From a virus, in IMG/VR virus record IMGVR_UViG_3300030116_007024, positions 1-64,000 of that record: a stretch of 64,000 nucleotides of DNA; one strand, 5' to 3'. Below, piece after piece: positions 540 through 60,252 of this stretch (positions are counted from its first letter, which is position 1; every line of letters starts with the position of its first letter). The notes below the pieces were generated by a model, which ran no database searches, was not told where the DNA came from, and saw only the letters and a list, made by a program, of their open reading frames with translations. Made by a program: the position numbers and the translations under genes.

Positions 540-1507
540 AAGTACCAATTACAGAATACGATGTTGTATTCATTAGTTATGATGAGCCCAATGCTGATGA
601 TAACTATGCGGATTTAATTAATAAAATTCCATGGGCTAAACGTTCACATGGAGTATGGGGAAGCGATGCCGCACATAAAGCGGCCGCGGAAATGGCTGAA
701 ACTGATAGATTTATTGGCATTGATGCTGATAATATTATTGATCCTGAATTTTTAAACATTGAATTAGATAATACAACAATTGATCTGTCTATTGATGTTA
801 TTAGCTGGAGTGCTAAAAATCAAGTAAACGGTTTAGTATATGGCAATGGAGGAATCAAGTGTTGGCCAAAAGTGGTTGTTGAGAATATGATGACACATGA
901 AAATGCCAATTCTAAGGAAGGACAAGTAGATTTTTGTTGGGACATACATTATGTGCAAATGAATAACATTTATAGCACAATTTTTAATAATGCAACTCCG
1001 TATCAAGCATATAGAGCAGGCTTTCGTGAAGGCTGTAAAATGAGTTTAGATATGGGAGATGTGGTACCTATAGACCAATTTAAAAAACGAGTACACTATA
1101 AAAATTATAAACGATTATTAGTATGGATGTCTGTTGGTGCAGATACATTAAATGGTTGGTGGTGCATGTATGGTGCTCGCCTAGGATGCTGGATGACAAA
1201 CTTTGAACGAGATAACTGGAATTGGGTCGATGTTCGAGATTTTGAATGGCATACACGTTACTGGAAAGAGAATATTGTTCCACAATTTGAAAACAAAGAA
1301 GGTATTGGTGTAACATGTACTCACACAGGGTGGACATATGACTTTGATAAATTAATATCTGAAACATGTAGAATAGGTGCGGATTTAAGATCAGAATTAA
1401 ATTTAGAAATTGCCGATCTTGATGATTTAGGTAGTAAATTCTTTAAAGAAACTTACACAAATCCGCCACGAACCGCCCCACTAATTAGAGAAGATCAAAT
1501 ATTATGA
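536..1507 (+). CDS. Putative DxD glycosyltransferase-like protein (paralogue of 21877-22605)
   Basis: A 323-residue protein with an N-terminal beta-strand segment (VVFISYDEP) followed near residue 62 by IGIDADN, an acidic DxD-like motif at the position where GT-A fold glycosyltransferases bind the metal and sugar nucleotide. It aligns along most of its length with the 242-residue product of 21877-22605: both share SYxE, DAD, a YGxGG(I/V)K.(W/F)PK block and a VGAD block. The C-terminus here is about 80 residues longer. It overlaps its neighbours by 4 bases on each side. It probably transfers sugars in the cytoplasm; this is fold-level inference and the acceptor is unknown. Confidence 0.6.
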   Translation: MKVPITEYDVVFISYDEPNADDNYADLINKIPWAKRSHGVWGSDAAHKAAAEMAETDRFIGIDADNIIDPEFLNIELDNTTIDLSIDVISWSAKNQVNGLVYGNGGIKCWPKVVVENMMTHENANSKEGQVDFCWDIHYVQMNNIYSTIFNNATPYQAYRAGFREGCKMSLDMGDVVPIDQFKKRVHYKNYKRLLVWMSVGADTLNGWWCMYGARLGCWMTNFERDNWNWVDVRDFEWHTRYWKENIVPQFENKEGIGVTCTHTGWTYDFDKLISETCRIGADLRSELNLEIADLDDLGSKFFKETYTNPPRTAPLIREDQIL

Positions 1508-3012
1508 GTATATTAAATGAAAATTGGGAAAAAAGAGGTAATTATGTAGTTCATTCGTCGCATAATTTTGAATTAATGAAAAACAAACAAAACGAAATAG
1601 GTCCTGGATTTTGTATAGCAAAGTGGAATCAAGTTTCGTTACATTTAGAAACAGGATTGACACATAGTTGTCATCATCCGACAGCTCATGAAATACCGTT
1701 AGCAGAATTATCAATAGATCCTTCTGCATTACACAATACAGAGTTTAAAAAACAACAAAGAAAAGCTATGCTTGAAGGTAATAGGCCTAAAGAATGCGAT
1801 TATTGTTGGCGTGTCGAAGATCAAAATCAGTATAGCGATCGGCAAATGAAAACTATCGAGCCTTGGGCATTAAAAGATTTTGATGACATAAGTTTAATGA
1901 CCGGTGATGAAAATGTTCCTCCAAAATATTTAGAAGTTAGTTTTACTAATGCATGTAATCAAAAATGTATATATTGTGGACCTGAATTTAGTACGGCTTG
2001 GATAGAAGAATTGAAGGAACAAGGACCGGTAGTAGTTCTAAAAGAACATAATAACTTTAAACGTATAGAGCAAGGATGGCAAAATTTAGATGATCTTTAT
2101 TATAAAAAAAATCAAACCAATCCTTATATAGATGCATTTTGGAAATGGTTTCCAGAAATTTATGATAAATTAGAAATATACAGAATAACAGGAGGCGAAC
2201 CTTTATTAAGCAAAGATACTTTTAAAAGTATGGAGTTTTTTTTAAAAAATCCCAATACTAATTTAGCATTAGCAATTAATAGTAACCTTAGTGTACCTGA
2301 AAGCGTGTGGTCAAAATTTATAATTTTATGTAAAAAGCTCATTACTTCAAAAGCAATAGGTAAATTAACAATATTTACAAGTATAGAAAGTTGGGGCGAA
2401 CAAGCAAATTATGCTAGATATGGTTTAGATTTTGATATCTATAGACAACGTATAGAAGAAATTGCAAATATAAATGATTTAAGATGTGTTTTTATGTCTA
2501 CTTATAATATTTTAAGTGTACCTTCTTTTTATAAAATATTAGAATGGCAATTAGAGCTAAAGAAAAAATACAATACAATAAATCTAGATAATGAAAAACG
2601 ATCACATTCTTGGTTGATGGGTATAGATATCCCGTACCTTAGACATCCTCAATATTTAGATGTAGGTATTCTCACAGATGATATAAAAGAAAAATATATG
2701 TTACCTTGTTTAGATTTCATGAAAAACAATATTTCAACAAACCATACCGGATTTGAAGAATACGAAATGATTAAGTTTCAACGTATTATAGAATCTATTG
2801 ATATTCCTAAAGAAAATAAAACAAAATTAAGTATACGTAGAGCAAAATTTTATGATGTAATAAATGAAATGGACAAAAGACGAGGTACAAATTTTTTAAA
2901 GACTTTTCCTGAATTAAAAGAATTTTATTTTGAATGTGAAAAAAATAGGAATATGATAAAATATGCGGTAAATGTAATGGCAGATGGAGAAGCATATGAG
3001 TACAGTTCATAA
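1504..3012 (+). CDS. Radical SAM protein with variant N-terminal twitch-like domain
   Basis: A 502-residue radical SAM enzyme. The SAM [4Fe-4S] site is CNQKCIYC (Cys151, 155, 158), followed by the SAM-contact motif TGGEP around residue 234. An N-terminal auxiliary-cluster-like domain precedes the barrel: FCIAKW (Cys37), SCHHP (Cys56) and CDYCW (Cys98, Cys101). The usual CC pair of this domain is replaced by Cys-His-His. It is closely related in layout to the next gene, suggesting tandem duplication. It starts at an ATGA overlap. Reductive SAM cleavage giving a 5'-deoxyadenosyl radical is expected from the family; the substrate is unknown. Confidence 0.85.
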   Translation: MSILNENWEKRGNYVVHSSHNFELMKNKQNEIGPGFCIAKWNQVSLHLETGLTHSCHHPTAHEIPLAELSIDPSALHNTEFKKQQRKAMLEGNRPKECDYCWRVEDQNQYSDRQMKTIEPWALKDFDDISLMTGDENVPPKYLEVSFTNACNQKCIYCGPEFSTAWIEELKEQGPVVVLKEHNNFKRIEQGWQNLDDLYYKKNQTNPYIDAFWKWFPEIYDKLEIYRITGGEPLLSKDTFKSMEFFLKNPNTNLALAINSNLSVPESVWSKFIILCKKLITSKAIGKLTIFTSIESWGEQANYARYGLDFDIYRQRIEEIANINDLRCVFMSTYNILSVPSFYKILEWQLELKKKYNTINLDNEKRSHSWLMGIDIPYLRHPQYLDVGILTDDIKEKYMLPCLDFMKNNISTNHTGFEEYEMIKFQRIIESIDIPKENKTKLSIRRAKFYDVINEMDKRRGTNFLKTFPELKEFYFECEKNRNMIKYAVNVMADGEAYEYSS

Positions 3013-4504
3013 AGCATTTTTAGAGCCTACTATTAGCTATATTAAACGAGTTCTCAATTCAAAAAGTAAATCATTTTGCGGAGCAAAATGGTATAATGCA
3101 ACTATATGGCTAGGACAAGGAGTTAATTCTAGTTGTCACCATCCACCTCCGCATCCTATAGACCAAAATGAGATTAAAACTAATTATAAAGCAATTCATA
3201 ATACAAAATATAAAAAAATAGTTCGTAAACAAATGTTAGAAGGAATTCGGCCTTCTGAATGCGAATATTGTTGGAAAATAGAAGATAATAATATTAATAA
3301 TATAAGTGATAGATTTCATAAAAGTGCAGTATATACAGAAAAAGAATTGCGAGATATTACTAAATTAAAATGGAATGAAGATGTAGATTTATTAACATTA
3401 GAAATTGCATTTGATAATAATTGTAATTTTGCATGTAGTTATTGTAATCCTACGTGCTCCACTACATGGAGTAAAGATATAAAAACACATGGTGCATATG
3501 ATAGTTTACAAGGAGCAGATGATGTCGGTTTAACATTTGCTCAAACCGGAGAATGGGCGTTACCACATGGATCAAAAAATGAGAATAATCCTTATGTAGA
3601 AGCATTTTGGAAATGGTGGGATGCTGATTTATGTACTACATTAAAAGAATTGCGGGTAACTGGTGGTGAACCAACTGTTAGTAATAATTTTTGGAAGTTA
3701 TTAGATTGGTGGAAAGAGCATAAAGAATGCCAAGTAATATTAGCAATTAATTCTAATTTAGGTTTTAAATTTGATATATGCGATAAATTAGTTAAAGCTA
3801 GCCATTATATAAACACATGTCATATTTACACAAGTAACGAAAGTTATGGCAAACATGCAGAATACATTAGAGATGGATTAGTTTGGGACCTATGGACTGA
3901 TAATTTAAATATTATAGCAAAACATAGTAGAATAAAATTAATACATATAATGTTTACGATTAATGCATTGTGTTTAGCAAGCATTACAAAATTAATAGAA
4001 TATATTTTTACTTTTCAAGAAACATATAAAGATATTAAAATAGATATGAGTTTTAATATCTTGCGGTGGCCTAGTTTTCAAAGTATTACAACATTACCTA
4101 AATATTTGGTTGAACAAAAAATTAAAGAATTGGAGGAATTTATAGAACATAATAGTCAGCCACCATATTTTAAGGAAGGTTTAAAAAGTCATCAAGTAGA
4201 TAGATTAACTACTTTAATAAATTATTTAAAAAACGAAGTTGAAGGATTTGATGGCGCAACCGATTTAACCAAAAGACAACAAAATTTTAAAGCATTTTAT
4301 ACTCAATACGATCAACGCAGAAATAAATCTTTTATTGATACATTTGCTGATTGGCCAGAATTAGTTAAATGGTATAATTCTTTAGATTATGAATTTGTAC
4401 CTCAAGAACAAACTAGCGGTGTTCAACCTAAAAATGATCATTATGAAAGAGTGTTAAAGGAAAATAAGGAACAGGTACTTCTCCTTATGGAGGAAAGTAT
4501 GTAG
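2996..4504 (+). CDS. Radical SAM protein with variant N-terminal twitch-like domain
   Basis: A 502-residue paralogue of the preceding enzyme. The start at 2996 is chosen because a GGAG Shine-Dalgarno sequence lies 6 bases upstream; an in-frame ATG at 2984 would add four residues. The N-terminal domain has FCGAKW (Cys28), SSCHHP (Cys47) and CEYCW (Cys89, Cys92). The radical SAM site CNFACSYC (Cys143, 147, 150) is followed by CNPTCSTTW and TGGEP. As in its neighbour, a long insertion of about 70 residues separates the Cys motif from GGE, and a shared YxxAFWKWW segment lies within it. Substrate unknown. The pair probably acts on related substrates or sequential positions. Confidence 0.85.
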   Translation: MSTVHKAFLEPTISYIKRVLNSKSKSFCGAKWYNATIWLGQGVNSSCHHPPPHPIDQNEIKTNYKAIHNTKYKKIVRKQMLEGIRPSECEYCWKIEDNNINNISDRFHKSAVYTEKELRDITKLKWNEDVDLLTLEIAFDNNCNFACSYCNPTCSTTWSKDIKTHGAYDSLQGADDVGLTFAQTGEWALPHGSKNENNPYVEAFWKWWDADLCTTLKELRVTGGEPTVSNNFWKLLDWWKEHKECQVILAINSNLGFKFDICDKLVKASHYINTCHIYTSNESYGKHAEYIRDGLVWDLWTDNLNIIAKHSRIKLIHIMFTINALCLASITKLIEYIFTFQETYKDIKIDMSFNILRWPSFQSITTLPKYLVEQKIKELEEFIEHNSQPPYFKEGLKSHQVDRLTTLINYLKNEVEGFDGATDLTKRQQNFKAFYTQYDQRRNKSFIDTFADWPELVKWYNSLDYEFVPQEQTSGVQPKNDHYERVLKENKEQVLLLMEESM

Positions 4505-5671
4505 GTGAGTTCAATGATAAAATATGAAGATATTAAAAAAATTCACGTTGAATTAAGTTCAAAATGTAATGCTAGTTGCCCTGGATGTCCCAGAAATGTT
4601 CAAGGAGGTTACGAGCTTCCTTCATTAAAAAAAGCAGAATTAAGTATAGATGATTTTAAAAAACTTTTTTTAAAAGATTTTTTAAAACAAATAGATTCGA
4701 TTTTATTTTGCGGTAATTATGGCGATCCTATTACTTGCAACGACATTATTCCCATATTAACTTATATTAAATCATGTAGTGACGCAAATATAAGAATTCA
4801 TACTAATGGTAGTCTTAGAACCCCCGAATTTTGGAAAAACATTGCAACTATTCTTTCGCCATCTGATACGATTATATGGAGTATAGATGGATTAAGCGAC
4901 ACGAATCATTTATATAGACGAGGTACTGATTGGAATAAAATTATTGATAATGCAACTTCATTTATAGAAGCAGGAGGTGTCGCAACTTGGGAATATTTAA
5001 TTTTTAAGCATAACGAGCATCAAATAAATGAAGCACATGAATTATCAAAAAAATTAGGATTTCATTATTTTGCTCCTAAAAAAGCATTTGGGTTTGAATC
5101 GGGCAATTATGCAGTTAAAGCAATGCAAGTTGTTAATAAAAATGGTGATCATGATTATTTTATACATCCTCCTAGTGAGAAAAATAGAAATATAGATGTT
5201 TTAAAAGCAAAGCAAAATAAAAACGAAAAACTACATCCTCATTCCTATAATCGTAATAAATTTATTGAAGATTATAATATAAAGTGTAAAGAATCAAATA
5301 AACTAGTTTCAGAAGGTTATTTTGATTATTTAGATAATGTAGAAATAAGTTGTAGCACCATAAACAATTCTGAGATATTTGTAGATAGTCTAGGAGGAGT
5401 TCATCCGTGTTGTTACTTAGGACATGTATCACAAGAAGCCGATTCACATGTAGAAATTCAATATGCTAATTTTATAAATATGCTAGGAACATCATACAAT
5501 TTTAATGGTATTACACATGGTGTTCGTCATATAGTAGAAAATTCATATTTTAATCTAATAAAAGAAACTTGGTCAAAGACTCATAGAAATGGTCGAATAG
5601 CACAATGCTCTAGAATGTGTTCAAAAAATGATAATATTATAGATAGTTTATATAATAAAGAAAATGCATAA
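4505..5671 (+). CDS. Radical SAM protein with C-terminal SPASM-like domain
   Basis: A 388-residue radical SAM enzyme with the SAM cluster motif CNASCPGC near the N-terminus (Cys21, 25, 28) and CGNYGDP in place of the canonical GGE. The C-terminal third has cysteines typical of a SPASM auxiliary-cluster domain (SCS, HPCCYLGH, CSRMC). The start is GTG at 4505, 10 bases after a GGAGG; ATG at 4514, 6 bases after AGGTG, is equally possible. It resembles the product of 26720-27796 in domain order and in the unusual GNxGDP motif. It probably modifies a peptide or small molecule; the substrate is unknown. Confidence 0.85.
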   Translation: MSSMIKYEDIKKIHVELSSKCNASCPGCPRNVQGGYELPSLKKAELSIDDFKKLFLKDFLKQIDSILFCGNYGDPITCNDIIPILTYIKSCSDANIRIHTNGSLRTPEFWKNIATILSPSDTIIWSIDGLSDTNHLYRRGTDWNKIIDNATSFIEAGGVATWEYLIFKHNEHQINEAHELSKKLGFHYFAPKKAFGFESGNYAVKAMQVVNKNGDHDYFIHPPSEKNRNIDVLKAKQNKNEKLHPHSYNRNKFIEDYNIKCKESNKLVSEGYFDYLDNVEISCSTINNSEIFVDSLGGVHPCCYLGHVSQEADSHVEIQYANFINMLGTSYNFNGITHGVRHIVENSYFNLIKETWSKTHRNGRIAQCSRMCSKNDNIIDSLYNKENA

Positions 5672-9022: not shown

Positions 9023-9761
9023 TACAATCGTTTTAACACAAATCCGTTCCGGCGGTACTGTTTTAGACTCGTTATTATCTCTCATACATAAGAAAAAAAA
9101 TATAGAATTTCATAATTTTTGGCAATATGTCCCTGATGCAGGTTCGCCTAAAGAATTGGAACAGCAATTTGAAAAAATATATGATAAAATTGCATTATTA
9201 AATGTAAAATGGAATATTCGATTAATAATACCAGAATTAATAAATTTAAATAATGCAGGATATATTACAACGCCAGTGATATCAAAATTATTTAAAAAAT
9301 TAATAACACCAGCAGTAAAAATTTTTTTATATAGACAAGATATTGAGGATTGGTTTTTAAGTTATATAATTGCCGAAAAAACACAAGTATTTCATGTTAA
9401 TGATATTAATAATAATTTAAATTTAGATAAATCTTTTGATGTAAATGAAAACGAAATAATAAAATTTTTAGATACATTATTATTAACAAAAAATGTTTTT
9501 AATTTAATTGAAGATGATAAAACAGTATATATAGAATATAATGATCTATTAAATAAAAAAATATTTTGTGAAGAATTAGGTATAACATTTACTGATAATG
9601 ATAACACGTTTTTAGAAACAGATAATAATGGTTATCCGGTTAAAAAATTATATAGTAAAAATGAAAAAATAAATAAAATTAACAACTGGTCTAAAATTTC
9701 AAAAATTCTACATAATTATTGTAATTACCTCGGTTTTAACAATTCTTTTTTTTATGATTAA
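9000..9761 (+). CDS. Sulfotransferase-like P-loop protein
   Basis: A 253-residue protein. TQIRSGGTVLDSLLSL near residues 13-28 resembles the 5'-phosphosulfate loop of PAPS-dependent sulfotransferases (RSGS-type loop followed by a helix). KIFLYRQDIEDWFLSY near residues 107-122 resembles the 3'-phosphate motif (LxR.P.d...S). The C-terminal half is very Asn/Lys-rich and poorly conserved. A second, different sulfotransferase-like gene follows directly. A role in sulfating a glycan made by the neighbouring glycosyltransferases is inferred. Confidence 0.5.
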   Translation: MKNILQNNTIVLTQIRSGGTVLDSLLSLIHKKKNIEFHNFWQYVPDAGSPKELEQQFEKIYDKIALLNVKWNIRLIIPELINLNNAGYITTPVISKLFKKLITPAVKIFLYRQDIEDWFLSYIIAEKTQVFHVNDINNNLNLDKSFDVNENEIIKFLDTLLLTKNVFNLIEDDKTVYIEYNDLLNKKIFCEELGITFTDNDNTFLETDNNGYPVKKLYSKNEKINKINNWSKISKILHNYCNYLGFNNSFFYD

Positions 9762-10584
9762 AAATTGGCAAGAGCTATCATTTACTATAAAAGAACAACC
9801 TCGTTTTTATTCAGATCTTGATTTTGATTTTACAGTAGAAGATGATATAATGAATATTAACGTAAAAGCGAATCCTAGATGGGAAAATGTATTATCTGGT
9901 GATTTAAAAAATACATGGCAACCTTTGGAAATATTTGAAAATGCCGTTAGCTATGGGTATGTTCCTTCCTTTGGTCATGTTGGACGTATAATTAGGTTAG
10001 ATTCTAATATAGGTTGGATTAATATACCAAAAAATGCAAGCACTTCGATACGTAAAATAACAAACAGTTTTCGAAAAGAAAGAATAGAAACAAAAGTTGA
10101 ATGGCTTTTAAAATATAAAGATTATAAATTATTTGCAGTATTACGAGATCCAATAGATAGGTTAAAATCAGGATTCAAACAATATATTGTAGAAAATCAA
10201 TTTTTAATTCATGATATGAATCATTTTAAGAAAAATATTGATAAAATTTTCTCTTACCCGAGAGATCCCCATATGCTTCCAAATTTTGTTTTTTTTAATA
10301 AATTAAAATTAAATGATATACATTTTATAATTGGTTTAGATAATGTTGATGTTGAAGTAATCAGTTGGTTAAAAAAACAAAACTTAGAAGTAGACAAAAC
10401 AATGTTTGAAAAAGTATATGAAAATAAAGCAATAAATAACAATAGAAAATCTGATTTTAAACCAATTATTGATAATTATATTGATACATTAGATGACAGT
10501 AGCGTATTAGCAAAGTTAATAAAGAAAGATTACGAATTTTTAAATATTATTAGGGAAAAATATTATGATTGTAACTTATCCTAA
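9754..10584 (+). CDS. Sulfotransferase family protein (carbohydrate sulfotransferase-like)
   Basis: A 276-residue protein with clear sulfotransferase signatures. WINIPKNASTSIRK near residues 86-99 is the 5'-phosphosulfate-binding loop of the Sulfotransfer_2 type (P-K-x-A-S-T-S). FAVLRDPIDRLKSGFKQY near residues 127-144 is the 3'-phosphate-binding motif (R-D-P...R...S). It lies between two TEKIFKPI glycosyltransferase paralogues, which fits sulfation of a newly made sugar chain. It overlaps the upstream gene by 8 bases and the downstream gene by 20. No signal peptide or membrane anchor is visible, so it should act in the cytoplasm. Confidence 0.7.
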   Translation: MIKNWQELSFTIKEQPRFYSDLDFDFTVEDDIMNINVKANPRWENVLSGDLKNTWQPLEIFENAVSYGYVPSFGHVGRIIRLDSNIGWINIPKNASTSIRKITNSFRKERIETKVEWLLKYKDYKLFAVLRDPIDRLKSGFKQYIVENQFLIHDMNHFKKNIDKIFSYPRDPHMLPNFVFFNKLKLNDIHFIIGLDNVDVEVISWLKKQNLEVDKTMFEKVYENKAINNNRKSDFKPIIDNYIDTLDDSSVLAKLIKKDYEFLNIIREKYYDCNLS

Positions 10585-11908: not shown

Positions 11909-11940
11909 ACCATAAATTTAATTTTATGAACCATAAATTT
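11903..11940 (+). repeat. 17-bp direct repeat over a start codon
   Basis: The sequence TTATGAACCATAAATTT occurs at 11903-11919 and again at 11924-11940. The two copies are separated by 4 bases and are in phase (21-base period). Each contains an ATG in the frame of the downstream SGNH-like gene, duplicating its first residues (MNHKF). It probably arose by a slippage or tandem duplication that created a second start. Confidence 0.85.
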
Positions 11941-12699: not shown

Positions 12700-12701
12700 A
12701 T

Positions 12702-13250
12702 ATGGCCGAACACCAAGGATTAGTAATAGTGGATGCGTGGGATTATGATGCGTATATTAAAAAGCGTAACGAAATACCGTATTCCCAAGAATGTGCTAAA
12801 GATGGTAGCGAATTTTCTATTTTTTTAAATAGAGTTTGTGAAAAAGAAAGAGCAAATGGCACGACAATAATTTTTGATATTGGATTTAATAAACTAATAG
12901 ATAAAATTACTGTTGACGAAAAAACAGATTTAATATTACCATACATGTATGAAAATAATTATATGAATATAATAAAAGAACGTAAAATAAACGAACTATA
13001 TTTTTGTGGATTTCATTTTGGATTATGTATACATGATAAAATTGCTAACGTAAGTGAATCGACTGATTATAACGGTAAATTAGGCATTATTATAAATTTA
13101 AGTATGTTATTACCAGTAGATACATTTAAAAACAAGTTTGAGCGTTTTCATAAACCTAATAAACCTAGATATAAACCAAATCATGCATGGGATTATTATT
13201 TATGGACACCAAAATGTGAATTTGAAAAAATAGATATAAGTTTTCCATGA
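12702..13250 (+). CDS. Isochorismatase-fold (cysteine hydrolase-like) protein, paralogue
   Basis: A 182-residue protein. GLVIVDAWDYD (Asp11) and INELYFCGFHFGLCIHD (Cys109) match the Asp and Cys positions of the isochorismatase superfamily and align with the product of 7285-7782. A following IINLSMLLPVD segment corresponds to the strand after the nucleophile. The catalytic Lys is not clearly identifiable. Two spacer bases separate it from the upstream stop. Its occurrence twice within 6 kb, each time next to glycan-type genes, suggests two related hydrolytic or non-catalytic binding roles. Function unproven. Confidence 0.5.
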   Translation: MAEHQGLVIVDAWDYDAYIKKRNEIPYSQECAKDGSEFSIFLNRVCEKERANGTTIIFDIGFNKLIDKITVDEKTDLILPYMYENNYMNIIKERKINELYFCGFHFGLCIHDKIANVSESTDYNGKLGIIINLSMLLPVDTFKNKFERFHKPNKPRYKPNHAWDYYLWTPKCEFEKIDISFP

Positions 13251-14299
13251 CAATATTAAATAAATGGGTTTGTACTAAACCTTGGAATTTTTTAGATGTA
13301 AATCATTATGGTTCTTATATGTGTTGTCCGAGTTGGTTACCTGAAGATATAACTAATCATAATACGCCAGAAGAAGTATCTATTACAAAAGGATGGTTTA
13401 GCGAAAAGGCAGACAGAATTAGAAAAAGTATGTTAGATGGAAGTTTTAGGTACTGCAATCATAAAATTTGTCCTGAATTAAGTGAAGTATTAGCAGGTAG
13501 AGAAACTGAAACTGAATTTTTTAAACTTAAAAAAAATTTTAAACCACCAAAAAAACCAACTGTAGAATTTATATGTTTTGGTCAAGATAGAAGTTGTAAT
13601 ATAAAATGTCCAAGTTGTCGATCAAATGTAATACCTAATGATCGTTTAAATAGTCTGGAACATATAAAAAAACAACAAATACAAGACGAAATTGAAAATA
13701 ATTTTAGTAATAGTATTAAGCGTATCTTATTAACAGGATCAGGTGATCCTATATACAGTAAAATTTATAGAGACTTTTTAATAAACTTCGATAAGACAAA
13801 GTATCCGCAATTAGAAGAAATTCAGATAGTAACAAATGGTATTTTGTTAAATAAAAAAATGTGGAATAGTTTTAATTGTAAAGAGTTCATTAAAATTTTA
13901 GAAATTAGTTTTGATGCTGGTACTAAAAATACATACGAAAATGTTACTCGTTTAGGAGGTAATTGGGATAAGCTCATATCTAATGTAAAGTTTTTAGCAA
14001 TGTTGGCAGATATGAAAAGACATTTTATTTTTAGTTTTGTTGTAAGTGAATATAATTTCAAAGAAATGGTAGCATTAGTAAATCTTATTGATGATATAAC
14101 TAATGGTATGATAGGATCTAAAACTATTCGTTTTTCACAACATGTATATTGGAATACAGGCGCATTAAGTCAAGATGAAGTTAAAAAAATAAGTATTTTT
14201 GATCCTAAACATTTACATCATGACAAATTTTTAAAAGAATTAAAAACTATTAATAAACACCCAAATGTATCGCATAACTTTCATCATTTAATACAATGA
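13247..14299 (+). CDS. Radical SAM protein with N-terminal twitch-like domain
   Basis: A 350-residue protein. The N-terminal auxiliary-cluster-like domain has WVCTKPWNF (Cys9), YMCCPSW (Cys26, Cys27) and CNHKIC (Cys70, Cys75). The radical SAM motif is CNIKCPSC (Cys117, 121, 124), and LLTGSGDP replaces GGE. The spacing of the second Cys pair (CxxxxC instead of CxxC) differs from the other family members in this window. It begins at an ATGA overlap with the isochorismatase-like gene. Substrate unknown. Confidence 0.8.
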   Translation: MTILNKWVCTKPWNFLDVNHYGSYMCCPSWLPEDITNHNTPEEVSITKGWFSEKADRIRKSMLDGSFRYCNHKICPELSEVLAGRETETEFFKLKKNFKPPKKPTVEFICFGQDRSCNIKCPSCRSNVIPNDRLNSLEHIKKQQIQDEIENNFSNSIKRILLTGSGDPIYSKIYRDFLINFDKTKYPQLEEIQIVTNGILLNKKMWNSFNCKEFIKILEISFDAGTKNTYENVTRLGGNWDKLISNVKFLAMLADMKRHFIFSFVVSEYNFKEMVALVNLIDDITNGMIGSKTIRFSQHVYWNTGALSQDEVKKISIFDPKHLHHDKFLKELKTINKHPNVSHNFHHLIQ

Positions 14300-15029: not shown

Positions 15030-16235
15030 ATGAAAATAGGATTTATTGGTTTAGGAAAACTAGGATTAGAATGTGCAGAAGCAATAGTAGATAAAGGTAT
15101 ACCTGTTACTGGATATGATATTAAAGAAAGGACAAGTAATAAAGTATCTATTGTGTCTGACATAAAAGATGCAGTAACGGGAATGGACTTTATTTTTATT
15201 GCAGTAGAAACACCGCACAATGCAAAATATGACGGTAGCATTCCTTCATCTCATTTATCAAATAAAGATTTTGATTATTCGCATGTTAAAGATGTTCTTG
15301 GACGAATTAATAATATAGTAACAAAAGATCAAGCTATTGTATTAATTAGTACTGTATTACCTGGAACATGTAGAGAACAATTTATACCTATGCTAGGATT
15401 AGGAACAAATTTTATATATAATCCATATTTAATTGCAATGGGAACTACTACATGGGATATGTTAAATCCGGAAATGATTATTATTGGTAATGCCACAGGT
15501 AAACAAGACGATGTTACAGCCAAATTAGTAGATTTTTATAATATGATATTAGAAAAAAATAATACTAGATTTGAAATAGGAACATGGGACGAAGGTGAAT
15601 GTATTAAAATCTTTTATAATACATTTATATCTGCCAAGCTAAGTCTTGTAAATATGATCCAAGATGTTGCTGAATGCAATGGTAATATAAATTGCGATGT
15701 TGTTGCAAATGCTATTACTAATAGTACTCAACGTATTATTAGTCCTATGTATATGAAACCAGGTATGGGCGATGGAGGCCCATGTCATCCTAGAGATAAT
15801 ATTGCATTAAGATATCTAGCAGAAAAGTTAGATCTAGGATATGATTTATTTGATGCCATAATGACCGCTAGGGAGGTACAAGCAAAAAAATTGGCAGAAA
15901 AATTAATTAGTTATGATTTGCCTGTTGTTATTTTAGGCAAATCATTTAAACCAAATACAGAATTTACAGATGGCAGTTATGGAATGTTAGTAGGACATTA
16001 TGTAAAAGAGCTTGCTCCTCATTTAGATTTATATTATGACAAAAATCCAAACGATACGTTCGAACCTATTACTGAAGAAATACATGATGTACCTTGTACA
16101 TATCTATTAGGCCATCGAGGTAAATATTATGATTTTAATTTTAATCGTAATAGTATTATAGTAGATCCTTGGAGAGAGTTTGAAACAGACAATACAAACA
16201 TCAAAGAAATAGTTCATTATGGAAACACTAGATAA
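15030..16235 (+). CDS. Nucleotide-sugar dehydrogenase (UDP-glucose/GDP-mannose dehydrogenase family)
   Basis: A 401-residue protein. GFIGLGKLG (residues 4-12) is the GxGxxG NAD-binding loop, with Asp30 at the end of the second strand suiting NAD. PGMGDGGPCHPRDN carries the catalytic Cys252 of this family. The C-terminal domain retains ILGKSFKPNTEFTDGS, the substrate-binding segment. The enzyme oxidises the C6 hydroxyl of an NDP-hexose to a uronic acid in two steps. The nearest equivalents are UDP-glucose and UDP-N-acetyl-sugar dehydrogenases, but the exact substrate cannot be read from motifs. An AAAGGA ribosome site precedes it, at the head of the activated-sugar cassette. Confidence 0.85.
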   Translation: MKIGFIGLGKLGLECAEAIVDKGIPVTGYDIKERTSNKVSIVSDIKDAVTGMDFIFIAVETPHNAKYDGSIPSSHLSNKDFDYSHVKDVLGRINNIVTKDQAIVLISTVLPGTCREQFIPMLGLGTNFIYNPYLIAMGTTTWDMLNPEMIIIGNATGKQDDVTAKLVDFYNMILEKNNTRFEIGTWDEGECIKIFYNTFISAKLSLVNMIQDVAECNGNINCDVVANAITNSTQRIISPMYMKPGMGDGGPCHPRDNIALRYLAEKLDLGYDLFDAIMTAREVQAKKLAEKLISYDLPVVILGKSFKPNTEFTDGSYGMLVGHYVKELAPHLDLYYDKNPNDTFEPITEEIHDVPCTYLLGHRGKYYDFNFNRNSIIVDPWREFETDNTNIKEIVHYGNTR

Positions 16236-16237
16236 TA

Positions 16238-16852
16238 ATGGCGAGAATTACACTAAGTTACATATGTGCGGTAGAATGGACATATCCAACAGTAAATGAA
16301 TTAAGAGACAAGTATGACATTGGTATTCACATAGATTTAATGGATGGGCATTTTGTACCAAGACTTGGAGTACAACCAGAATTAATTGATCTTTTAAAAA
16401 ACGAATGCAATGTTCCTGTTGATGTACATTGTATGCTCACTGCTAATAACCACGCCTGGAAAGATGTGTTAAATAGCAAAGCAGACGTAATTTATGCACA
16501 CTACGAAGCATTTCATAGTAAAGAACACACACTAAAATTTTTAAAACAAGATAGCAGATTACAATTAGCATTTAAACCGCAATGGACTATCCAACAAATA
16601 AATGAAATTTGCGAGGAAATGGGCGTCAATGATTATTTGCTAATGGCATACAATCCAGGTATAACAAAACAGAATTCGTTTTACGATTTAAAAAAGATAA
16701 TGAATACACAACGTTATGTAACAGTAGACGGCGGTATTGATTTTGATACAGTCGAGCAGTTTCTGGGCCACAATAAAGTTAGCCTAGTAGCAGGTAGTAA
16801 ATTATTATTCAATTCAAAATATAAACAAAACATAGAAAGATTATTATGTTAA
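16238..16852 (+). CDS. Ribulose-phosphate 3-epimerase-like TIM-barrel protein
   Basis: A 204-residue protein close to the usual epimerase length. HIDLMDGHFVP (residues 31-41) is the family signature with metal-binding His31/Asp33 and catalytic Asp36-type residues. VDVHCML supplies the second metal-binding His (64) and VTVDGGID the second catalytic Asp. Classic epimerases interconvert ribulose-5-phosphate and xylulose-5-phosphate. The context (SIS isomerase, HAD phosphatase, kinase-nucleotidyltransferase) suggests it epimerises a keto-sugar phosphate destined for an activated sugar. Two bases separate it from the dehydrogenase stop. Confidence 0.8.
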   Translation: MARITLSYICAVEWTYPTVNELRDKYDIGIHIDLMDGHFVPRLGVQPELIDLLKNECNVPVDVHCMLTANNHAWKDVLNSKADVIYAHYEAFHSKEHTLKFLKQDSRLQLAFKPQWTIQQINEICEEMGVNDYLLMAYNPGITKQNSFYDLKKIMNTQRYVTVDGGIDFDTVEQFLGHNKVSLVAGSKLLFNSKYKQNIERLLC

Positions 16853-17211
16853 ATGGAACAGATTTAATTAGTGTAGCAAAACAATATTTTGATGCATGGA
16901 ATAACCAAAATATAAATCATTTGTCATTTCTATTTGATAAAGATGTTGTATTACAAGATTGGGATATAACTGCAACAGGCAAAGAAGATGTAGTAAAAGC
17001 CAATCAAAATATTTTCAATAGTGTTAACAACATTTCAGCAGAAGTACAAGACATAGGCTATAACGATAATAAAGTTTATGCAGAATTACTTATAAAAGTA
17101 TTATCATTAGATGCAGTTGATCCATCAGATGAAGATACAATAAAAGTATTAGACGTTATAACAATTAACGACAATTTAAATATAACTAAAATCAGTGCAT
17201 ATAAACAATGA
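16846..17211 (+). CDS. NTF2-like / SnoaL-like small alpha+beta barrel protein
   Basis: A 121-residue protein with the typical NTF2-like opening: a helix SVAKQYFDAWNNQNINHL, then a strand FLFDKDVVLQDW, a helix KEDVVKANQNIF and alternating strands. This cone-shaped fold serves as small isomerases, dehydratases or binding proteins. No catalytic residues can be assigned. It overlaps the epimerase-like gene by 7 bases and the following fusion gene by 4, so it is a core member of the cassette, perhaps acting on the same sugar intermediate. Confidence 0.6.
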   Translation: MLNGTDLISVAKQYFDAWNNQNINHLSFLFDKDVVLQDWDITATGKEDVVKANQNIFNSVNNISAEVQDIGYNDNKVYAELLIKVLSLDAVDPSDEDTIKVLDVITINDNLNITKISAYKQ

Positions 17212-43603: not shown

Positions 43604-44373
43604 TGAAACATCCTTATTTTGTACCAGATACAGTCCAAGAAGATAAAACAGAAGATGTCGATGATATGGTACGATTTATATCAGGGCATGAACTATTTAA
43701 TAATAAAATGTATTATGATACATTGTATAATGTATTAACAGAATATGAGAAAACTAAGGATATTGATACTATTATAATGAGTTGGTTGCCTTTTTTAAAA
43801 ATAAAAACTCCTATACCACATGAAGAAATGTTTGATGAGGCAAAACGATTATTACCATTTTTTGTTAATCATAGAGGAGATGCATACAACTGGAAAAGTT
43901 TATGCTTATGGGGACTAAGTCATGCACACACAGGTGTTCCTGAAGATTACGGCATGGAAGAAACCGAAGAACTAGAAGAACAATATATGGATTGGACAGA
44001 TATGTCTAAGTTTTGTCCTGCTACTAAAAATTGGTTAGAAAATGATTTTGGTTTTAATAGTTTTACTAGAGTGCGTTTTATGTTAATTGAGCCAGGAGGT
44101 TACATTAAACCACATAGTGATACAGATCATTCAGAGTTAATCGCAATTAACATTGCGTTAAACATGCCAAAAAAATGTTATTTTATAGTAGACAAATATG
44201 GATGTTTACCTTTAAATGCAGGAGATATATTTTTGTTTAATAATTCATACACACATGCAGTATGGAATCAATCCAACGAACCGCGAATACATATGATAGT
44301 TTATGGTGGCAGAGACTGGAATTGGTGGGAGAAAAAAATAGTAGAAAATTTAAAAAATGTCACTAAGTTATAG
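43603..44373 (+). CDS. AspH-like Fe(II)/2OG hydroxylase (aspartyl/asparaginyl beta-hydroxylase fold)
   Basis: A 256-residue protein from ATG 43603, which has GGGAG 5 bases upstream and overlaps the preceding stop (TAATG). LIEPGGYIKPHSDTDHSEL carries His171 and Asp173, and SYTHAVWNQSNEPRIHMIV carries His218 and Arg228. The P-G-G...H-x-D and H-x-V-x-N...R patterns are characteristic of the aspartyl/asparaginyl beta-hydroxylase family. The ~140-residue N-terminal region is novel. It presumably hydroxylates a carboxylate-bearing substrate; identity unknown. Confidence 0.8.
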   Translation: MKHPYFVPDTVQEDKTEDVDDMVRFISGHELFNNKMYYDTLYNVLTEYEKTKDIDTIIMSWLPFLKIKTPIPHEEMFDEAKRLLPFFVNHRGDAYNWKSLCLWGLSHAHTGVPEDYGMEETEELEEQYMDWTDMSKFCPATKNWLENDFGFNSFTRVRFMLIEPGGYIKPHSDTDHSELIAINIALNMPKKCYFIVDKYGCLPLNAGDIFLFNNSYTHAVWNQSNEPRIHMIVYGGRDWNWWEKKIVENLKNVTKL

Positions 44374-47916: not shown

Positions 47917-48861
47917 ATGTTAGAATCAGACAAAATTATAATAGACCCTACAAAATCAAGACAAAAAATGCCTAGAGAATATGCTATTCCTAGACGTGCT
48001 AGATTAATAGATCAAATAAGTTGGATTTATAGTGAATACATTTCTGGTACTGCTGGAGATTTTTTCAGCCAATTTACTGCTGGAAGTAGTCCAAATATAA
48101 TAGCATTTAATAAAATTTTACAACAAGATTTACCTGCTGAACATGCTTTGTTTGCAACTAACGTAGAACTCGCAACTGTTAGAGGTGTTAATTTTAGTTC
48201 AAAAAATGTTATTGAAGCATGTTTATTTGATCAAGTAGCAAGTTTAAAAAATGTACTAGAAGGTTTATTAATTTATCAGTTATCTAAAAAGCGTGACGGT
48301 AATTGGACAAGAGATTATTTAGAAGGATACTTACAACTAAAGAAAGGATTTTTTACAACCCATCCACATGAATGCACTGGTTATAAAACAAACATAACAA
48401 GATTAAAACAGGAATTAGGAAGTGATAAATTAACATCTATTGCAGTAGTACCATCTACATTTGAAAGTTTTTATTTTATGTGTAGTTATAGAGTATTAGG
48501 AAAGTCTATAGATAAAGAACATCAAAATACTGAAAGATTAAACGAAATTGCTAGAACTAATACTCGATCTTTATTAGAAGAATTTGCCTCATGGTTACAA
48601 GATATAAAGCATAGAAAAGATATTATATTTGTTGATCATATTAATGGTATTGTAAACAATAAAGACAACTTTATTAATAAAATGGAAGACATTTTTGGCA
48701 TGATTGATAGAGAATATTCTGACTATGTGATAAATTCCTATATAGAAAAACGATTTAATAATAATTTAGATCGCATGGACAAATGGAAAGCAATTATGGA
48801 AAGAGAGTGGTTATCTAGCGAATATGCAGTAGATATTTTAAAGGAGCTAAGTATTATATGA
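47917..48861 (+). CDS. Uncharacterised protein with possible P-loop, sulfotransferase-like
   Basis: A 314-residue protein. SEYISGTAGDFFSQFTAGS near residues 39-57 is a Gly-rich loop after a strand. DIIFVDHINGIVNNKDNFI with the following MEDIFGMID resembles the conserved sulfotransferase region in which a Y/D-E-D-L strand is followed by a helix and a short leucine turn. The intervening region is helical. Resemblance to the product of 27771-28313 at the loop supports a shared fold, but neither is diagnostic. One base separates it from the upstream stop; ATGA overlap downstream. Confidence 0.5.
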   Translation: MLESDKIIIDPTKSRQKMPREYAIPRRARLIDQISWIYSEYISGTAGDFFSQFTAGSSPNIIAFNKILQQDLPAEHALFATNVELATVRGVNFSSKNVIEACLFDQVASLKNVLEGLLIYQLSKKRDGNWTRDYLEGYLQLKKGFFTTHPHECTGYKTNITRLKQELGSDKLTSIAVVPSTFESFYFMCSYRVLGKSIDKEHQNTERLNEIARTNTRSLLEEFASWLQDIKHRKDIIFVDHINGIVNNKDNFINKMEDIFGMIDREYSDYVINSYIEKRFNNNLDRMDKWKAIMEREWLSSEYAVDILKELSII

Positions 48862-50021
48862 GCCTAAGTAAAAGTGGTTACGATTTTACAAAAATACCAT
48901 TTGATGATTTAGTACGAGTGGGCCAACGTAATATGTTATATAGAGACTTGTTTACAGTCTCATGGTTACTTGGCAGATTTTGTAATTATAAATGTTCATA
49001 TTGTTGGACCCATGGACGGAGTGATGAGCATGATCATAGACCAACTGAGATGTGTCTTAGAACCATCGACGAAATTAAACGACAAGCCCGAGAGCGTGGT
49101 TTTAATAGTTTTCATTTTAGCCTCTCTGGGGGTGAGCCTACATTGCATCCTGGTTACCTTGATATATTACGGCACCTTAATGATGACGTAGGTAATACAA
49201 ATTACACAAGTGTACACATGACTTCAAACTGCTCGCAAGGGATGAAGTGGTTTGAGGAGTATGTTCGTGCGGTCAGTAACTTCCATAGAGCAAGTATAAC
49301 ATGCAGTTATCACAGAGAATATATTAAAAATACTAAAAAACAAAATCAACTATCTGATAAATTAGAACTTTGTCAAGAATGGGATGTCCAAATTACAATA
49401 AATGTTGTAATGGTACCTGAGTGGTTTTGGCAAATAATGGACGAAGTACAACTGTTTCATGAACGTGGAATCAATGTTACACTTAAACCACAAAGCAATC
49501 CTAATGCAACATTTGTTGTAGAAGGGTATACAGACGAAATGCTAGAAATGTTACATAATGGAATGCCTCAACGTGGGTTTACAGAAGCAAAAAATAAACA
49601 TGTTACACGACCTAAACCCACATTTATAAAAGCACCAGATCCTATATACTGGGAAGAAAACGATGGCGTTCCACAACATTTTCAAGTAGAATTTAAAGAT
49701 AGTAAGAATAAGCCATGGTTTATGGATCAAGCAGAACGTTTTAATGCATTTAATTTTAACAACTTTTTAGGATGGGAATGTAGTAGTGGTTATAGAAGCA
49801 TTATTATACGTGAGCCTGACGGAAGTATTAAACGAAGTTATAGTTGTGCTGATGAACCATTAGGTTATATATACGATGAATTTAATTTATTTGACGGGCC
49901 TAAGCCTTGTTTGAGCAAAAGTTGTGTTAGTTCTGCAGATAGTAAAATACCTAAGCGTAAACCAGGAACTAAATTACCTTTGTGGCCAGGAGATAAAACA
50001 TATGAGCTTCCATCTGTTTAA
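48858..50021 (+). CDS. Radical SAM protein with C-terminal Cys-rich domain
   Basis: A 387-residue protein with the classic radical SAM core: FCNYKCSYCW (Cys42, 46, 49) and SLSGGEPTLHP. The C-terminus contains GWECSSGY, SYSCADE, CLSKSC and lies in the place of a SPASM/twitch auxiliary-cluster domain. Codon use around 49000-49260 looks slightly more GC-rich than its neighbours. It precedes two AspH-like oxygenases and a nitroreductase, suggesting a shared oxidative pathway. Substrate unknown. Confidence 0.88.
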   Translation: MSLSKSGYDFTKIPFDDLVRVGQRNMLYRDLFTVSWLLGRFCNYKCSYCWTHGRSDEHDHRPTEMCLRTIDEIKRQARERGFNSFHFSLSGGEPTLHPGYLDILRHLNDDVGNTNYTSVHMTSNCSQGMKWFEEYVRAVSNFHRASITCSYHREYIKNTKKQNQLSDKLELCQEWDVQITINVVMVPEWFWQIMDEVQLFHERGINVTLKPQSNPNATFVVEGYTDEMLEMLHNGMPQRGFTEAKNKHVTRPKPTFIKAPDPIYWEENDGVPQHFQVEFKDSKNKPWFMDQAERFNAFNFNNFLGWECSSGYRSIIIREPDGSIKRSYSCADEPLGYIYDEFNLFDGPKPCLSKSCVSSADSKIPKRKPGTKLPLWPGDKTYELPSV

Positions 50022-50628
50022 TACTTTAACGGCATATGGAGATCAATACGCCTTAAGGTTACGTGTAGAATTAGCTGATGTACTATTAGAATTAGATAAT
50101 TATAAAAATAGTTGGACACCATATAACCCAAGAAAAAAGATTAATAGATGGGGGTTAAGTTTAACAAATTTAGATGGAAAACTAGGACCAGGTCCTGACT
50201 TAGATAGTTTACGAGAATACAACGCAGAACACAATACAAAAATTAGAGAAAAAGACTTTATAGTACCTACTCCAGTATATGATATTTTTAGTGATGTTCT
50301 TGCTCCAATTTCACAATGGTTAGTGCGATGTCATTTATTACAATTAAGACCTGGCGGATATTTTCCAACACACATTGATAATTATGGTACTGATATTGAA
50401 TCGTTTAGGTTGCTTATACCTTTAGAAAATATGAATCCAGATCATAGTTGGTTTATAATTGAAAATAAAATTTTATACTGGGAATATGGTGATATGTATT
50501 TTTTGAATACTTGCAAACAACATACATTGTTTAATGCTGGATTTAAAAATATGACTATGGTTGTTTTAAATGTTTTATTAGAAAAAGAAGTAGTAGATTA
50601 TATATTAAGTTCAAAGGTTATGTATTGA
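50002..50628 (+). CDS. AspH-like Fe(II)/2OG hydroxylase
   Basis: A 208-residue protein from ATG 50002, which has AGGAG 8 bases upstream; a longer frame to 49924 lies inside the radical SAM gene. LLQLRPGGYFPTHIDNYG carries His124 and Asp126, and LNTCKQHTLFNAGFKN carries His174. The arginine that normally follows the H-x-x-x-N turn and binds 2-oxoglutarate appears as Lys182, which could still serve. It overlaps the next, related oxygenase gene by one base. Confidence 0.75.
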   Translation: MSFHLFNTLTAYGDQYALRLRVELADVLLELDNYKNSWTPYNPRKKINRWGLSLTNLDGKLGPGPDLDSLREYNAEHNTKIREKDFIVPTPVYDIFSDVLAPISQWLVRCHLLQLRPGGYFPTHIDNYGTDIESFRLLIPLENMNPDHSWFIIENKILYWEYGDMYFLNTCKQHTLFNAGFKNMTMVVLNVLLEKEVVDYILSSKVMY

Positions 50629-51179
50629 TGTATTGGGAAGAATTACCATATAAAATAGATGTAGATAAAATACAAGAAACATGGAAAGCAATACGACTTA
50701 AATCGGCCTTAAAAAAGACACGAAGAGGGTTAAATACTACTGAGGGAGAACAAATCCAGTGGACAGATACAGCCCCTACTTTGCAAACTGCATTACAGTA
50801 TAGTCAATATTCGGAAAACAAATATTTAGATCCTTGTCGTATAGCAATTAAAGATACCGATTTTAAGGATATATTAGATTTTTATAAAGACACATATTTT
50901 GAAGAACTGATACAGGAGTTTAGCCTAGTAAGAACTAGGCTATGTTTATTACAACCAAAATCAACATACAGTATTCATAACGACCCTACGTGGAGAATAC
51001 AAATTCCTGTGCTAACAAATAAAGATAATTACTTTATTTGGTTTGGTGATAAAATAGAAGTAAAGCATTTAGAATTGGGAAAAGCATACAAAGTTAACAC
51101 AACAATTAATCATACTTTTGCCAACTTTTCTGACGAAGAAAGAATACATCTGTTAGGAGTCCAACATGACAAATCTTGA
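50628..51179 (+). CDS. AspH-like Fe(II)/2OG hydroxylase
   Basis: A 183-residue protein from ATG 50628 at a TGATG overlap. RLCLLQPKSTYSIHNDPTWR carries His117 and Asp119, and INHTFANFSDEERIHLLGV carries His162 and Arg172, the full AspH-type set. It follows another AspH-like gene and precedes the nitroreductase, whose start lies 14 bases inside this gene. It probably acts in the same pathway as its neighbour. Confidence 0.78.
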   Translation: MYWEELPYKIDVDKIQETWKAIRLKSALKKTRRGLNTTEGEQIQWTDTAPTLQTALQYSQYSENKYLDPCRIAIKDTDFKDILDFYKDTYFEELIQEFSLVRTRLCLLQPKSTYSIHNDPTWRIQIPVLTNKDNYFIWFGDKIEVKHLELGKAYKVNTTINHTFANFSDEERIHLLGVQHDKS

Positions 51180-58934: not shown

Positions 58935-58955
58935 TTATTTTTATTTTATTTAGGC

Positions 58956-59036: not shown

Positions 59037-59354
59037 ATATTCGTTATACAAATCTTCTGTTACACGAACAAAATTATTATCATCACCAACTTCTCCCCAA
59101 TTAGGAGTTTCCGTTTTTGCAGTAATAAAATCAAGTTCGTTGTTCCATTCTACTTTCATTAGTACTAGTTTTTTATTTGACGATAAGGTAAACTCTGGGT
59201 TAATTCCATACGTTGGTGTAACATTAGTATTAATCCAATTCTTTACAGTATCAAGCTCATTTATGGTTTCAAACTCAGTTATATCTGTATATATCCTGTC
59301 GGTATTGTCGAAAAAGTTCTTCCCATAAATAAACATGTACACAGTATACGCCAT
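59031..59354 (-). CDS. Uncharacterised 107-residue protein
   Basis: A small soluble acidic protein, with an AGGTGG ribosome site 6 bases before the ATG. Its start overlaps the ATG of the divergent radical SAM gene (shared CATG). YTVYMFIYGK at the N-terminus and WNNELDFITAKTETPNWGEV in the second half suggest a compact beta-rich fold. No family recognised; size and codon use are typical of small phage accessory proteins. Its end covers the promoter box of the tctA operon. Confidence 0.6.
   Translation of the reverse strand: MAYTVYMFIYGKNFFDNTDRIYTDITEFETINELDTVKNWINTNVTPTYGINPEFTLSSNKKLVLMKVEWNNELDFITAKTETPNWGEVGDDNNFVRVTEDLYNEYL
59324..59331 (+). promoter_or_regulatory. Probable T4-type late promoter box (CATAAATA)
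   Basis: CATAAATA, one base off TATAAATA, lies inside the divergent small gene 21 bases before ATG 59353. This distance matches the perfect box at 45230 and supports that start over ATG 59335. Confidence 0.45.
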
Positions 59355-60252
59355 GATTAACCACCTAAATTTAGAATTATTCGGAGGATGTAATTACACT
59401 TGTAAAATATGTCCTCAAGGTATTTATCAGAGAGAGAAACCATTTCTTACACATTTACCGTTTAAGTTTGCAACAGATATAATAGAACATGCACAAATGC
59501 ATGGCATTAAATCTGTGAGCTTACAGGGCTCTGGTGAACCAATTCTTTACAAAAAGTTAAAAGAAATTATAAGTTTTTGTAAAAAACTAGGTCTAAAATC
59601 TTATATAACAACCAATTTAAGCACAAAAAACGTCCAAGAACTTGAAGAATTATTTGACGCAGGACTAACAAGTATTCGTGTTAGTTTCATTGGATATGAT
59701 GCTAAGACGTATAACGAGTGGATGGGCCAAGATAAATTCCATGATGTGTACGATAAAGTTTGTGCCATGTATAATTATAACATATCTGTTAACTGTATTG
59801 CAATCGAAAAATACTGGTTAAATGAATATAAATTATTGTTCGATAACAAAGTTAAATTTGTTGTATGGAATAAGCATAACTGGTCTGGACAACTAAGTCA
59901 AGAAGAATCTAACGAACCTTGTCCTAAAGTATCGTGGCCTGTTTTAAATGTAAGAGCTGGTGGTTTAGATGGACATAAAGGTGCCGTTGTACCATGTTGC
60001 AATGTATTAGGTCAAGATAGTAAAGCCGTGCTAGGACATTTAGATGTAAATACAATATCTGAAATATGGAACGGCAAAGCATATAATAAGTTTAGAAAAA
60101 AGCACAAGGAAGGTAAAGCACATAAGATTGATGTTTGCAAAAACTGCGATCAACGAAGTGCAAGCAGGGATGCTCTACTTTATAGTAACTATGATATAAC
60201 ACAACGAGAGAATCATTCTGTATGGTTAGAGAATTATCGTTTGCGGAAATAA
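59353..60252 (+). CDS. Radical SAM/SPASM protein
   Basis: A 299-residue protein from ATG 59353; an in-frame ATG at 59335 sits too close to the promoter box. The SAM site is GGCNYTCKICPQG (Cys13, 17, 20), and SLQGSGEPILY replaces GGE. A standard C-terminal SPASM domain follows: NEPCPKVSW, VVPCCNVLG, LGHLDVNTISEIWNGK and CKNCDQR, giving the usual auxiliary-cluster cysteines. It is the first gene after the strand switch. It overlaps a GNAT gene by 31 bases. Substrate unknown, possibly peptide-like as in other SPASM enzymes. Confidence 0.88.
   Translation: MINHLNLELFGGCNYTCKICPQGIYQREKPFLTHLPFKFATDIIEHAQMHGIKSVSLQGSGEPILYKKLKEIISFCKKLGLKSYITTNLSTKNVQELEELFDAGLTSIRVSFIGYDAKTYNEWMGQDKFHDVYDKVCAMYNYNISVNCIAIEKYWLNEYKLLFDNKVKFVVWNKHNWSGQLSQEESNEPCPKVSWPVLNVRAGGLDGHKGAVVPCCNVLGQDSKAVLGHLDVNTISEIWNGKAYNKFRKKHKEGKAHKIDVCKNCDQRSASRDALLYSNYDITQRENHSVWLENYRLRK

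Follow-up and report, generated by a model that had tools for sequence, protein, structure and literature searches.

A recurrent three-enzyme radical SAM kernel in a variable, putatively sugar-tailoring island of a large T4-superfamily phage

We analysed bases 1 to 64,000 (the window) of the 98,776-base linear virus record IMGVR_UViG_3300030116_007024, itself a fragment, and found a dense array of radical S-adenosylmethionine (SAM) genes built around a kernel that recurs in other phages and on some bacterial chromosomes. Judged from sequence, the kernel consists of the radical SAM genes starting at 26720, 29964, and 48858 plus a pair encoding a methyltransferase-like and a glycosyltransferase (GT)-like protein, and it is surrounded by a hypervariable shell that differs between phages. 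We give about even chances to the reading that the window is a hypervariable host-recognition island, flanking tail-fibre genes, of a large T4-superfamily phage and that it carries a sugar-tailoring pathway.

The initial annotation had listed fourteen radical SAM genes with intact CxxxCxxC motifs. All 14 were confirmed as intact open reading frames (ORFs) in those places, overlapping or nearly so, with slight shifts of the preferred start codon to 2984, 26639 or 26720, and 59335. Shuffling the residues of 70 window ORFs yielded a mean of 0.16 ORFs with the motif (maximum 2) against the 14 observed, so a chance origin of the set is ruled out. Profile searches matched every gene to the superfamily; PF04055 detects 13, and the one that escapes it (2984–4504) matches NF033640 at E 5e-87. 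A companion motif (GGEP, GGES, GN.GDP, or GSGD) is present in 13/14 and absent in 59335. Because PF04055 adds three genes to the right of the window (73081, 80376, 81631), the record of about 99 kb holds at least 17 radical SAM genes, besides one of QueE type.

NF033640 is the NCBIfam model N_Twi_rSAM, in which an N-terminal twitch precedes the radical SAM core; the name of the model assigns no reaction. Its curated cut-off of 170 bits over the whole protein is passed by nine window proteins (1504, 2984, 28249, 29964, 31342, 32462, 37702, 39818, 40924) and missed by 4505, 13247, 48858, and 59335 (61 bits or less each), while 26639/26720 is not among the matches. These five outside the model are of other types, most with Cys-rich C-termini. 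The fourteen genes are listed below, with relatives in the contig G001 and in the phages G002, G004, and G005.

1504..3012, + strand: N_Twi radical SAM, CHHP subtype; NF033640 310 bits; G001 ortholog 94%; relatives in G002 and G005
2984..4504, + strand: N_Twi radical SAM, CHHP subtype; NF033640 292 bits; no PF04055 match
4505..5671, + strand: radical SAM with C-terminal Cys region (SPASM-like), CNASCPGC; PF04055 33.9 bits; under the NF033640 cut-off
13247..14299, + strand: divergent radical SAM; PF04055 33.2 bits; NF033640 61 bits (under cut-off); no G001 ortholog
26720..27796, + strand: kernel 1, SPASM-like radical SAM (CQASCPMC, GNHGDP), family A2; 62–66% identity across phages
28249..29421, + strand: N_Twi radical SAM; NF033640 374 bits; about 52% to G002 and G005 orthologs
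29964..31361, + strand: kernel 2, N_Twi radical SAM, family A1; NF033640 398 bits; twitch Cys 6/24/87/90, core Cys 144/148/151
31342..32475, + strand: N_Twi radical SAM; NF033640 269 bits
32462..33772, + strand: N_Twi radical SAM; NF033640 302 bits; ortholog in G002
37702..38910, + strand: N_Twi radical SAM without the twitch-motif CC; NF033640 263 bits; orthologs in G002 and G004
39818..40927, + strand: N_Twi radical SAM; NF033640 221 bits
40924..42126, + strand: N_Twi radical SAM; NF033640 326 bits; 51% to G002
48858..50021, + strand: kernel 3, radical SAM (CNYKCSYC), family A3; 68–86% identity across phages
59335..60252, + strand: SPASM-like radical SAM; PF04055 48.2 bits; 94% in G001

An alignment of 44 N_Twi proteins revealed invariant core residues Cys-144, Cys-148, and Cys-151 and invariant twitch residues Cys-6, Cys-87, and Cys-90, with Cys-24 nearly so; the twitch cysteines are therefore compatible with one auxiliary Fe-S cluster. 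The CC of the twitch motif is lost in 37702.

Contig G001 is collinear with the window from base 3 to base 61894 at 56–99% identity, which rules out a chimeric assembly, one of two objections foreseen in the initial annotation. Across 13 radical SAM pairs between the two contigs, the median ratio of nonsynonymous to synonymous substitution rates (dN/dS) was 0.12, a low value that reflects purifying selection. The gene at 13247 has no ortholog in G001 and is therefore an example of cassette gain or loss. The DNA polymerase B of the record has its matches in large phages of the T4 superfamily, among them Atu_ph07 (47%), so the record is that of a phage, as had been supposed. Synonymous divergence from G001 is about 0.02–0.2 in the left part (1504–14299) and mostly 0.3–0.9 elsewhere, and this lower divergence suggests recent recombination at the fibre-side end.

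In a tree of N_Twi-type enzymes from five phages, the ten window proteins of N_Twi architecture fall in ten separate places, many of them paired with orthologs from G002, G004, or G005, phages in which gene order is reshuffled. The separate positions rule out recent tandem duplication of one gene and, together with the partners in other phages, indicate old paralogs moving together.

Among the IMG/VR candidate stretches, the kernel genes have at least 559 (29964), 588 (26720), and 351 (48858) relatives. In related phage records, the 26720 and 29964 families each occur in 21/22 and the 48858 family in 20/22, most of these records having been picked because one of the three families had matched. 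Most neighbour statistics likewise come from kernel-anchored loci, which biases their absolute frequencies; counts that are cross-anchored, or anchored on a 74-aa protein described below, are fairer. Radical SAM genes number 6–25 per record in records of 130–400 kb and 12–18 in five smaller ones (28–86 kb). A frequent order elsewhere begins with the methyltransferase/GT-like gene, the 74-aa protein where present, the 26720 type, another SPASM type, and the 29964 type, continues with a further radical SAM gene, a PP-loop ATPase, two more radical SAM genes, and an SDR, and has the 48858 type farther on. Kernel proteins of G000 and G002 are 65–68% identical, compared with 44–50% for the best-conserved phage core genes of the same pair.

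The collinearity of G001, the joint occurrence of the three families, and the phage orthologs of many window paralogs thus bear out the earlier view that the set travels together, and the other foreseen objection, that the genes are unrelated and rarely co-occur, fails on neighbourhood comparison. The "assembly line" of the initial annotation holds for the kernel only, the shell being hypervariable, as 13247 illustrates. A shell of this kind, with reshuffled order in G002, G004, and G005, could also mean that the genes have no common product and that the island gathers unrelated cassettes, with radical SAM enzymes favoured for separate reasons; the cassette additions described in PMC7029224 would agree with this. 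However, three families found together in nearly all related records, with a recurrent neighbour order, and a kernel that reappears as a compact unit in Bdellovibrionota make this explanation quite improbable.

In other phages a PNP_UDP_1-family nucleosidase adjoins the 29964-type gene (L038:11404–11958 and 23 other loci; fam35). Such enzymes can remove 5′-deoxyadenosine, the by-product of radical SAM catalysis, as is known for methylthioadenosine/S-adenosylhomocysteine nucleosidase, and the neighbouring protein possibly clears it. The G002 array encodes a 725-aa protein with B12-binding and radical SAM domains (L018:5493–7670), a probable cobalamin-dependent radical SAM enzyme.

An over-strict pattern scan of genomes returned 5 matches, two of them on Bdellovibrionales contigs where the three genes are consecutive, and hinted at a virus-exclusive kernel. 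Profile searches ruled this out: the 26720 type occurs in 17/141 Bdellovibrionales genomes and the 29964 type in 21/369 Bdellovibrionota genomes, with kernel contigs of up to 937 kb. The trio is usually accompanied there by methyltransferase- or GT-like genes (families A7, A8), and EpsD-like, exopolysaccharide-type GT2 genes lie near the kernel in 5/11 loci. Since the trio and its partners recur on these chromosomes, the kernel is a shared functional unit and not exclusive to viruses. In one locus (L374:13684–15186), a protein encoded next to the kernel combines an N-terminal Cys-containing part with an EpsD-like GT2 domain.

We tentatively propose, as a possibility short of a likelihood, that one multi-step radical pathway, so far undescribed, is common to large aquatic phages and some Bdellovibrionota and is composed of the three radical SAM enzymes, the methyltransferase-like protein, and, for the majority of the phages, a folded single-copy 74-aa substrate or carrier. 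It would yield a new class of modified biomolecule, its pattern varied by the radical SAM and Fe(II) shell. In the literature searched, in which few subscription papers or preprints were within reach, neither the kernel and its bacterial counterpart nor the 74-aa protein was found to be described. Radical SAM enzymes tolerate oxygen poorly and are expensive in SAM and iron, and a phage with 17 of them must draw some benefit. Scattered remarks on radical SAM-rich ocean phages thereby become a concrete, assayable set of three orthologous enzymes, two partners, and, for the majority of relatives, a small protein; hundreds of viral contigs carry the set, and so do bacterial chromosomes. A surface glycan as product would explain how large marine phages change host recognition, and a protein- or carrier-bound product would represent a new biosynthetic logic.

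The genomic position of the array may fit a host-recognition cluster. The leftward continuation of G001 carries virion-type genes, the window starting just inside this border, and the G005 array meets fibre genes, one with an N-terminus that matches jumbo-phage tail fibres. Radical SAM-rich islands of marine phages are, as a kind, already in print, and the earlier statement that no standard phage module explains the set was too strong. In the parts of the two sources consulted, T4-like pelagimyophages carry radical SAM cassettes and glycosyltransferases in a host-recognition cluster, the cassettes differing between near relatives (PMC7029224), and the T4-like ocean phage TARA_ERS488813_N000010, reported in 2017, has 12 radical SAM genes (PMC5332604); neither part gives a function. 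The pelagimyophage cluster resembles the window in its T4-superfamily setting, its sugar genes, and the gain and loss of cassettes, and its place by tail-fibre-side genes may be shared too. It differs from the present record, which has at least 17 radical SAM genes in 99 kb, a polymerase nearest Atu_ph07-type large phages, and a conserved three-gene kernel that the consulted part of PMC7029224 does not describe. TARA_ERS488813_N000010, a large T4-like marine phage, likewise combines several radical SAM genes in a single genome, a likeness by description and not by sequence; the part of PMC5332604 consulted treats them only among Fe-S proteins, without gene order or kernel.

A search of cultured phages for relatives found only the Vibrio phages K566 and K567 (255 kb), with no match for 42110, 10565, or 21053. 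In K566 (L032:14956–22755), four N_Twi-like radical SAM genes are interspersed with two GT8 genes and one weak GT4-like gene. This interleaving resembles the window, although identity to the window enzymes is about 22%, the K566 enzymes form their own tree branch, and the K566/K567 stretch read shows no kernel. K566 is a tractable model.

The sugar-tailoring reading is supported by the abutment of the array on fibre or virion genes in G005 and G001, as in the pelagimyophage clusters (PMC7029224), by the radical SAM/GT8 interleaving in K566, and by the EpsD-like GT2 genes near the bacterial kernel. Kernel co-occurrence, purifying selection on 13 radical SAM genes, and the genes for nucleotide sugars and sugar decoration within this gene run also support it. 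Sequence similarity points in the same direction. In the N_Twi profile, the twitch part shows a match to that of BtrN, the butirosin aminocyclitol radical SAM dehydrogenase (E 3e-7), though it is C-terminal in BtrN and N-terminal in N_Twi; the core matches SkfB, Tes, and BlsE, the last a cytosylglucuronate decarboxylase and thus a sugar enzyme (E 1e-6). Overall similarity of BtrN and BlsE to N_Twi is low.

Beyond the observed motifs, conservation, co-occurrence, synteny, and purifying selection, we infer a sugar substrate, an order of steps, and a biological role. The radical mechanism of the superfamily is established: in each enzyme, CxxxCxxC would hold a 4Fe-4S cluster and SAM would be cleaved to a 5′-deoxyadenosyl radical that takes hydrogen from an unactivated carbon, while the N-terminal twitch would hold an auxiliary cluster. 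The kernel (26720, 29964, 48858, and the methyltransferase-like and GT-like proteins) would carry out fixed steps, and the variable shell of 11 more radical SAM enzymes, oxygenases, sulfo-, carbamoyl-, and amidinotransferases, and nucleotide-sugar genes would set a phage-specific pattern. GT-like proteins would then attach the products, resulting in a modified glycan on infected cells or virions that may mask or change receptors for superinfection exclusion or evasion of host defences.

The initial annotation had also described about ten putative Fe(II) oxygenases and sulfo-, glycosyl-, methyl-, amidino-, and carbamoyltransferases among the radical SAM genes. The carbamoyl- and amidinotransferase, one sulfotransferase, two oxygenases, and the sugar enzymes stood; the remaining oxygenases, like every glycosyl- and methyltransferase of the window, found no match in Pfam and were called on motifs. 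The accompanying genes are as follows.

536..1507, + strand: GT-like protein of the 21877 family, toward the fibre-side end; no Pfam match
9754..10584, + strand: sulfotransferase; PF03567, barely over cut-off
15030..20926, + strand: sugar block with UGDH, RPE, SnoaL-like, NTP-transferase/kinase, SIS, HAD-like, and O-carbamoyltransferase genes; Pfam
21053..21880, + strand: kernel-associated methyltransferase-like protein, family A8; family in phages and Bdellovibrionota; no Pfam match
21877..22605, + strand: kernel-associated GT-like protein, family A7; family common to Bdellovibrionota loci; no PDB match
23704..25521, + strand: methyltransferase-like protein with long N-terminal extension; 32% to 21053; no Pfam match
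29399..29971, + strand: short SDR-type reductase; recurrent partner, 70 loci
36005..37054, + strand: amidinotransferase; nearest solved structure StrB1 (inosamine enzyme), E 5e-22
38907..39821, + strand: aminotransferase-like protein (pyridoxal phosphate fold, weak); PF00155 E 4e-4
43591..44373, + strand: Asp/Asn beta-hydroxylase-type Fe(II)/2-oxoglutarate oxygenase; PF05118 E 3e-17
50625..51179, + strand: Asp/Asn beta-hydroxylase-type oxygenase; PF05118 E 2e-5, over cut-off

UGDH (UDP-sugar dehydrogenase), RPE (ribulose-phosphate epimerase), and SIS are nucleotide-sugar enzymes by which surface-polysaccharide clusters are recognized. The block of amidinotransferase (36005), 37702, and aminotransferase-like gene (38907) is kept together in G002 and G004. 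Oxygenase matches at 25518, 26104, and 49924 were weak only, and other window matches comprise a nitroreductase, an AMP-binding protein, a GNAT, and a TctA permease. No Pfam, NCBIfam, or PDB relative was found for the kernel methyltransferase-like and GT-like proteins.

The solved structures nearest the O-carbamoyltransferase are NovN, GdmN, and TobZ, and this protein and the amidinotransferase are both nearest antibiotic-pathway enzymes. The cluster could accordingly make a free small molecule derived from an amino acid or aminocyclitol, intracellular or released, with import through phage transporters, a reading that would also accommodate the genes for a nitroreductase, a GNAT, an AMP-binding protein, and a SnoaL-like protein, the TctA gene of the window, and the OpuAC/permease pair of G001. 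We consider it rather improbable: no nonribosomal peptide synthetase, polyketide synthase, or other scaffold enzyme was identified, sugars too are decorated by carbamoyl- and amidinotransferases, and the Bdellovibrionota kernel comes without such a set. The closeness of the amidinotransferase to StrB1, an inosamine enzyme, also counts in favour of sugar tailoring.

Several findings weigh against sugar tailoring. Fibre-type genes were seen in only 16 loci or records, and several Bdellovibrionota loci have SppA-like or unrelated genes where an adjacent glycan gene would be expected. The kernel GT-like protein at 21877 has no Pfam or PDB match, the window proteins scanned gave no Pfam match to a GT, Wzx, or Wzy, and no flippase or polymerase was identified among them. 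The AlphaFold model of 29964 (pLDDT 88.7) matches radical SAM structures, its closest folds being the peptide/protein maturases SkfB and anSME at low TM-scores (0.34–0.45). Most phages, moreover, carry beside the kernel the 74-aa protein, superfluous to a sugar pathway. Sequence thus hints weakly at sugars and the modelled fold at peptides or proteins, and neither settles the substrate.

The strongest rival, unlikely in our estimate yet ahead of the others, is that the array modifies a protein or peptide, namely the 74-aa protein or a protein of the virion, for instance the tail fibre nearby. Besides the SkfB and anSME folds, it is favoured by the behaviour of the 74-aa protein, the sole convincing recurrent small ORF near radical SAM genes (L023:6500–6724, L026:8009–8233, and 100+ other loci); other recurrent small ORFs resemble alternative reading frames of its gene. 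At least 526 relatives occur in viral contigs, the gene is single copy in 18/22 records, and residues N33, H38, S40, W43, Y44, and Y51 are invariant. In counts anchored on it, an A2 (26720-type) radical SAM gene lies within 4 kb downstream in 47/48 and a methyltransferase/GT-like gene directly upstream in 65/67. Searches of Pfam, PHROG, cultured phages, and PDB folds gave no match, and a known domain was accordingly rejected; the protein may be a substrate, carrier, or scaffold.

Against modification of a protein or peptide, the 74-aa protein was not found in the record, in G001, or in two kernel-bearing Bdellovibrionales genomes tested, and its predicted structure is that of a compact helical domain (pLDDT 89.8) rather than a leader plus core. 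No further convincing small ORF recurs. The radical SAM genes are tightly packed (median gap −8) and the window has two gaps of more than 60 bases, which leaves neither space nor a candidate for the hidden precursor of a ribosomally synthesized and post-translationally modified peptide; such a product of the window is ruled out. No short precursor peptide adjoins a maturase in the window, and, unlike the SkfB and anSME systems, the window has no precursor peptide or sulfatase partner.

Two minor features were also noted. QueC-like, QueE-like, and GTP cyclohydrolase I genes (window 62213–62818; L001:14742–15584, 16260–16883; L002:2632–4131), with a TGT-like protein recognized by eye only, probably form a 7-deazaguanine DNA-modification module with an unconfirmed DpdA-like member. 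The TctA permease has a TctC-like partner, recognized by eye (window 56402–58934), and in G001 an OpuAC binding protein and an ABC permease are encoded just past the cluster end (L017:15977–17843); phage uptake systems thus differ between these close relatives.

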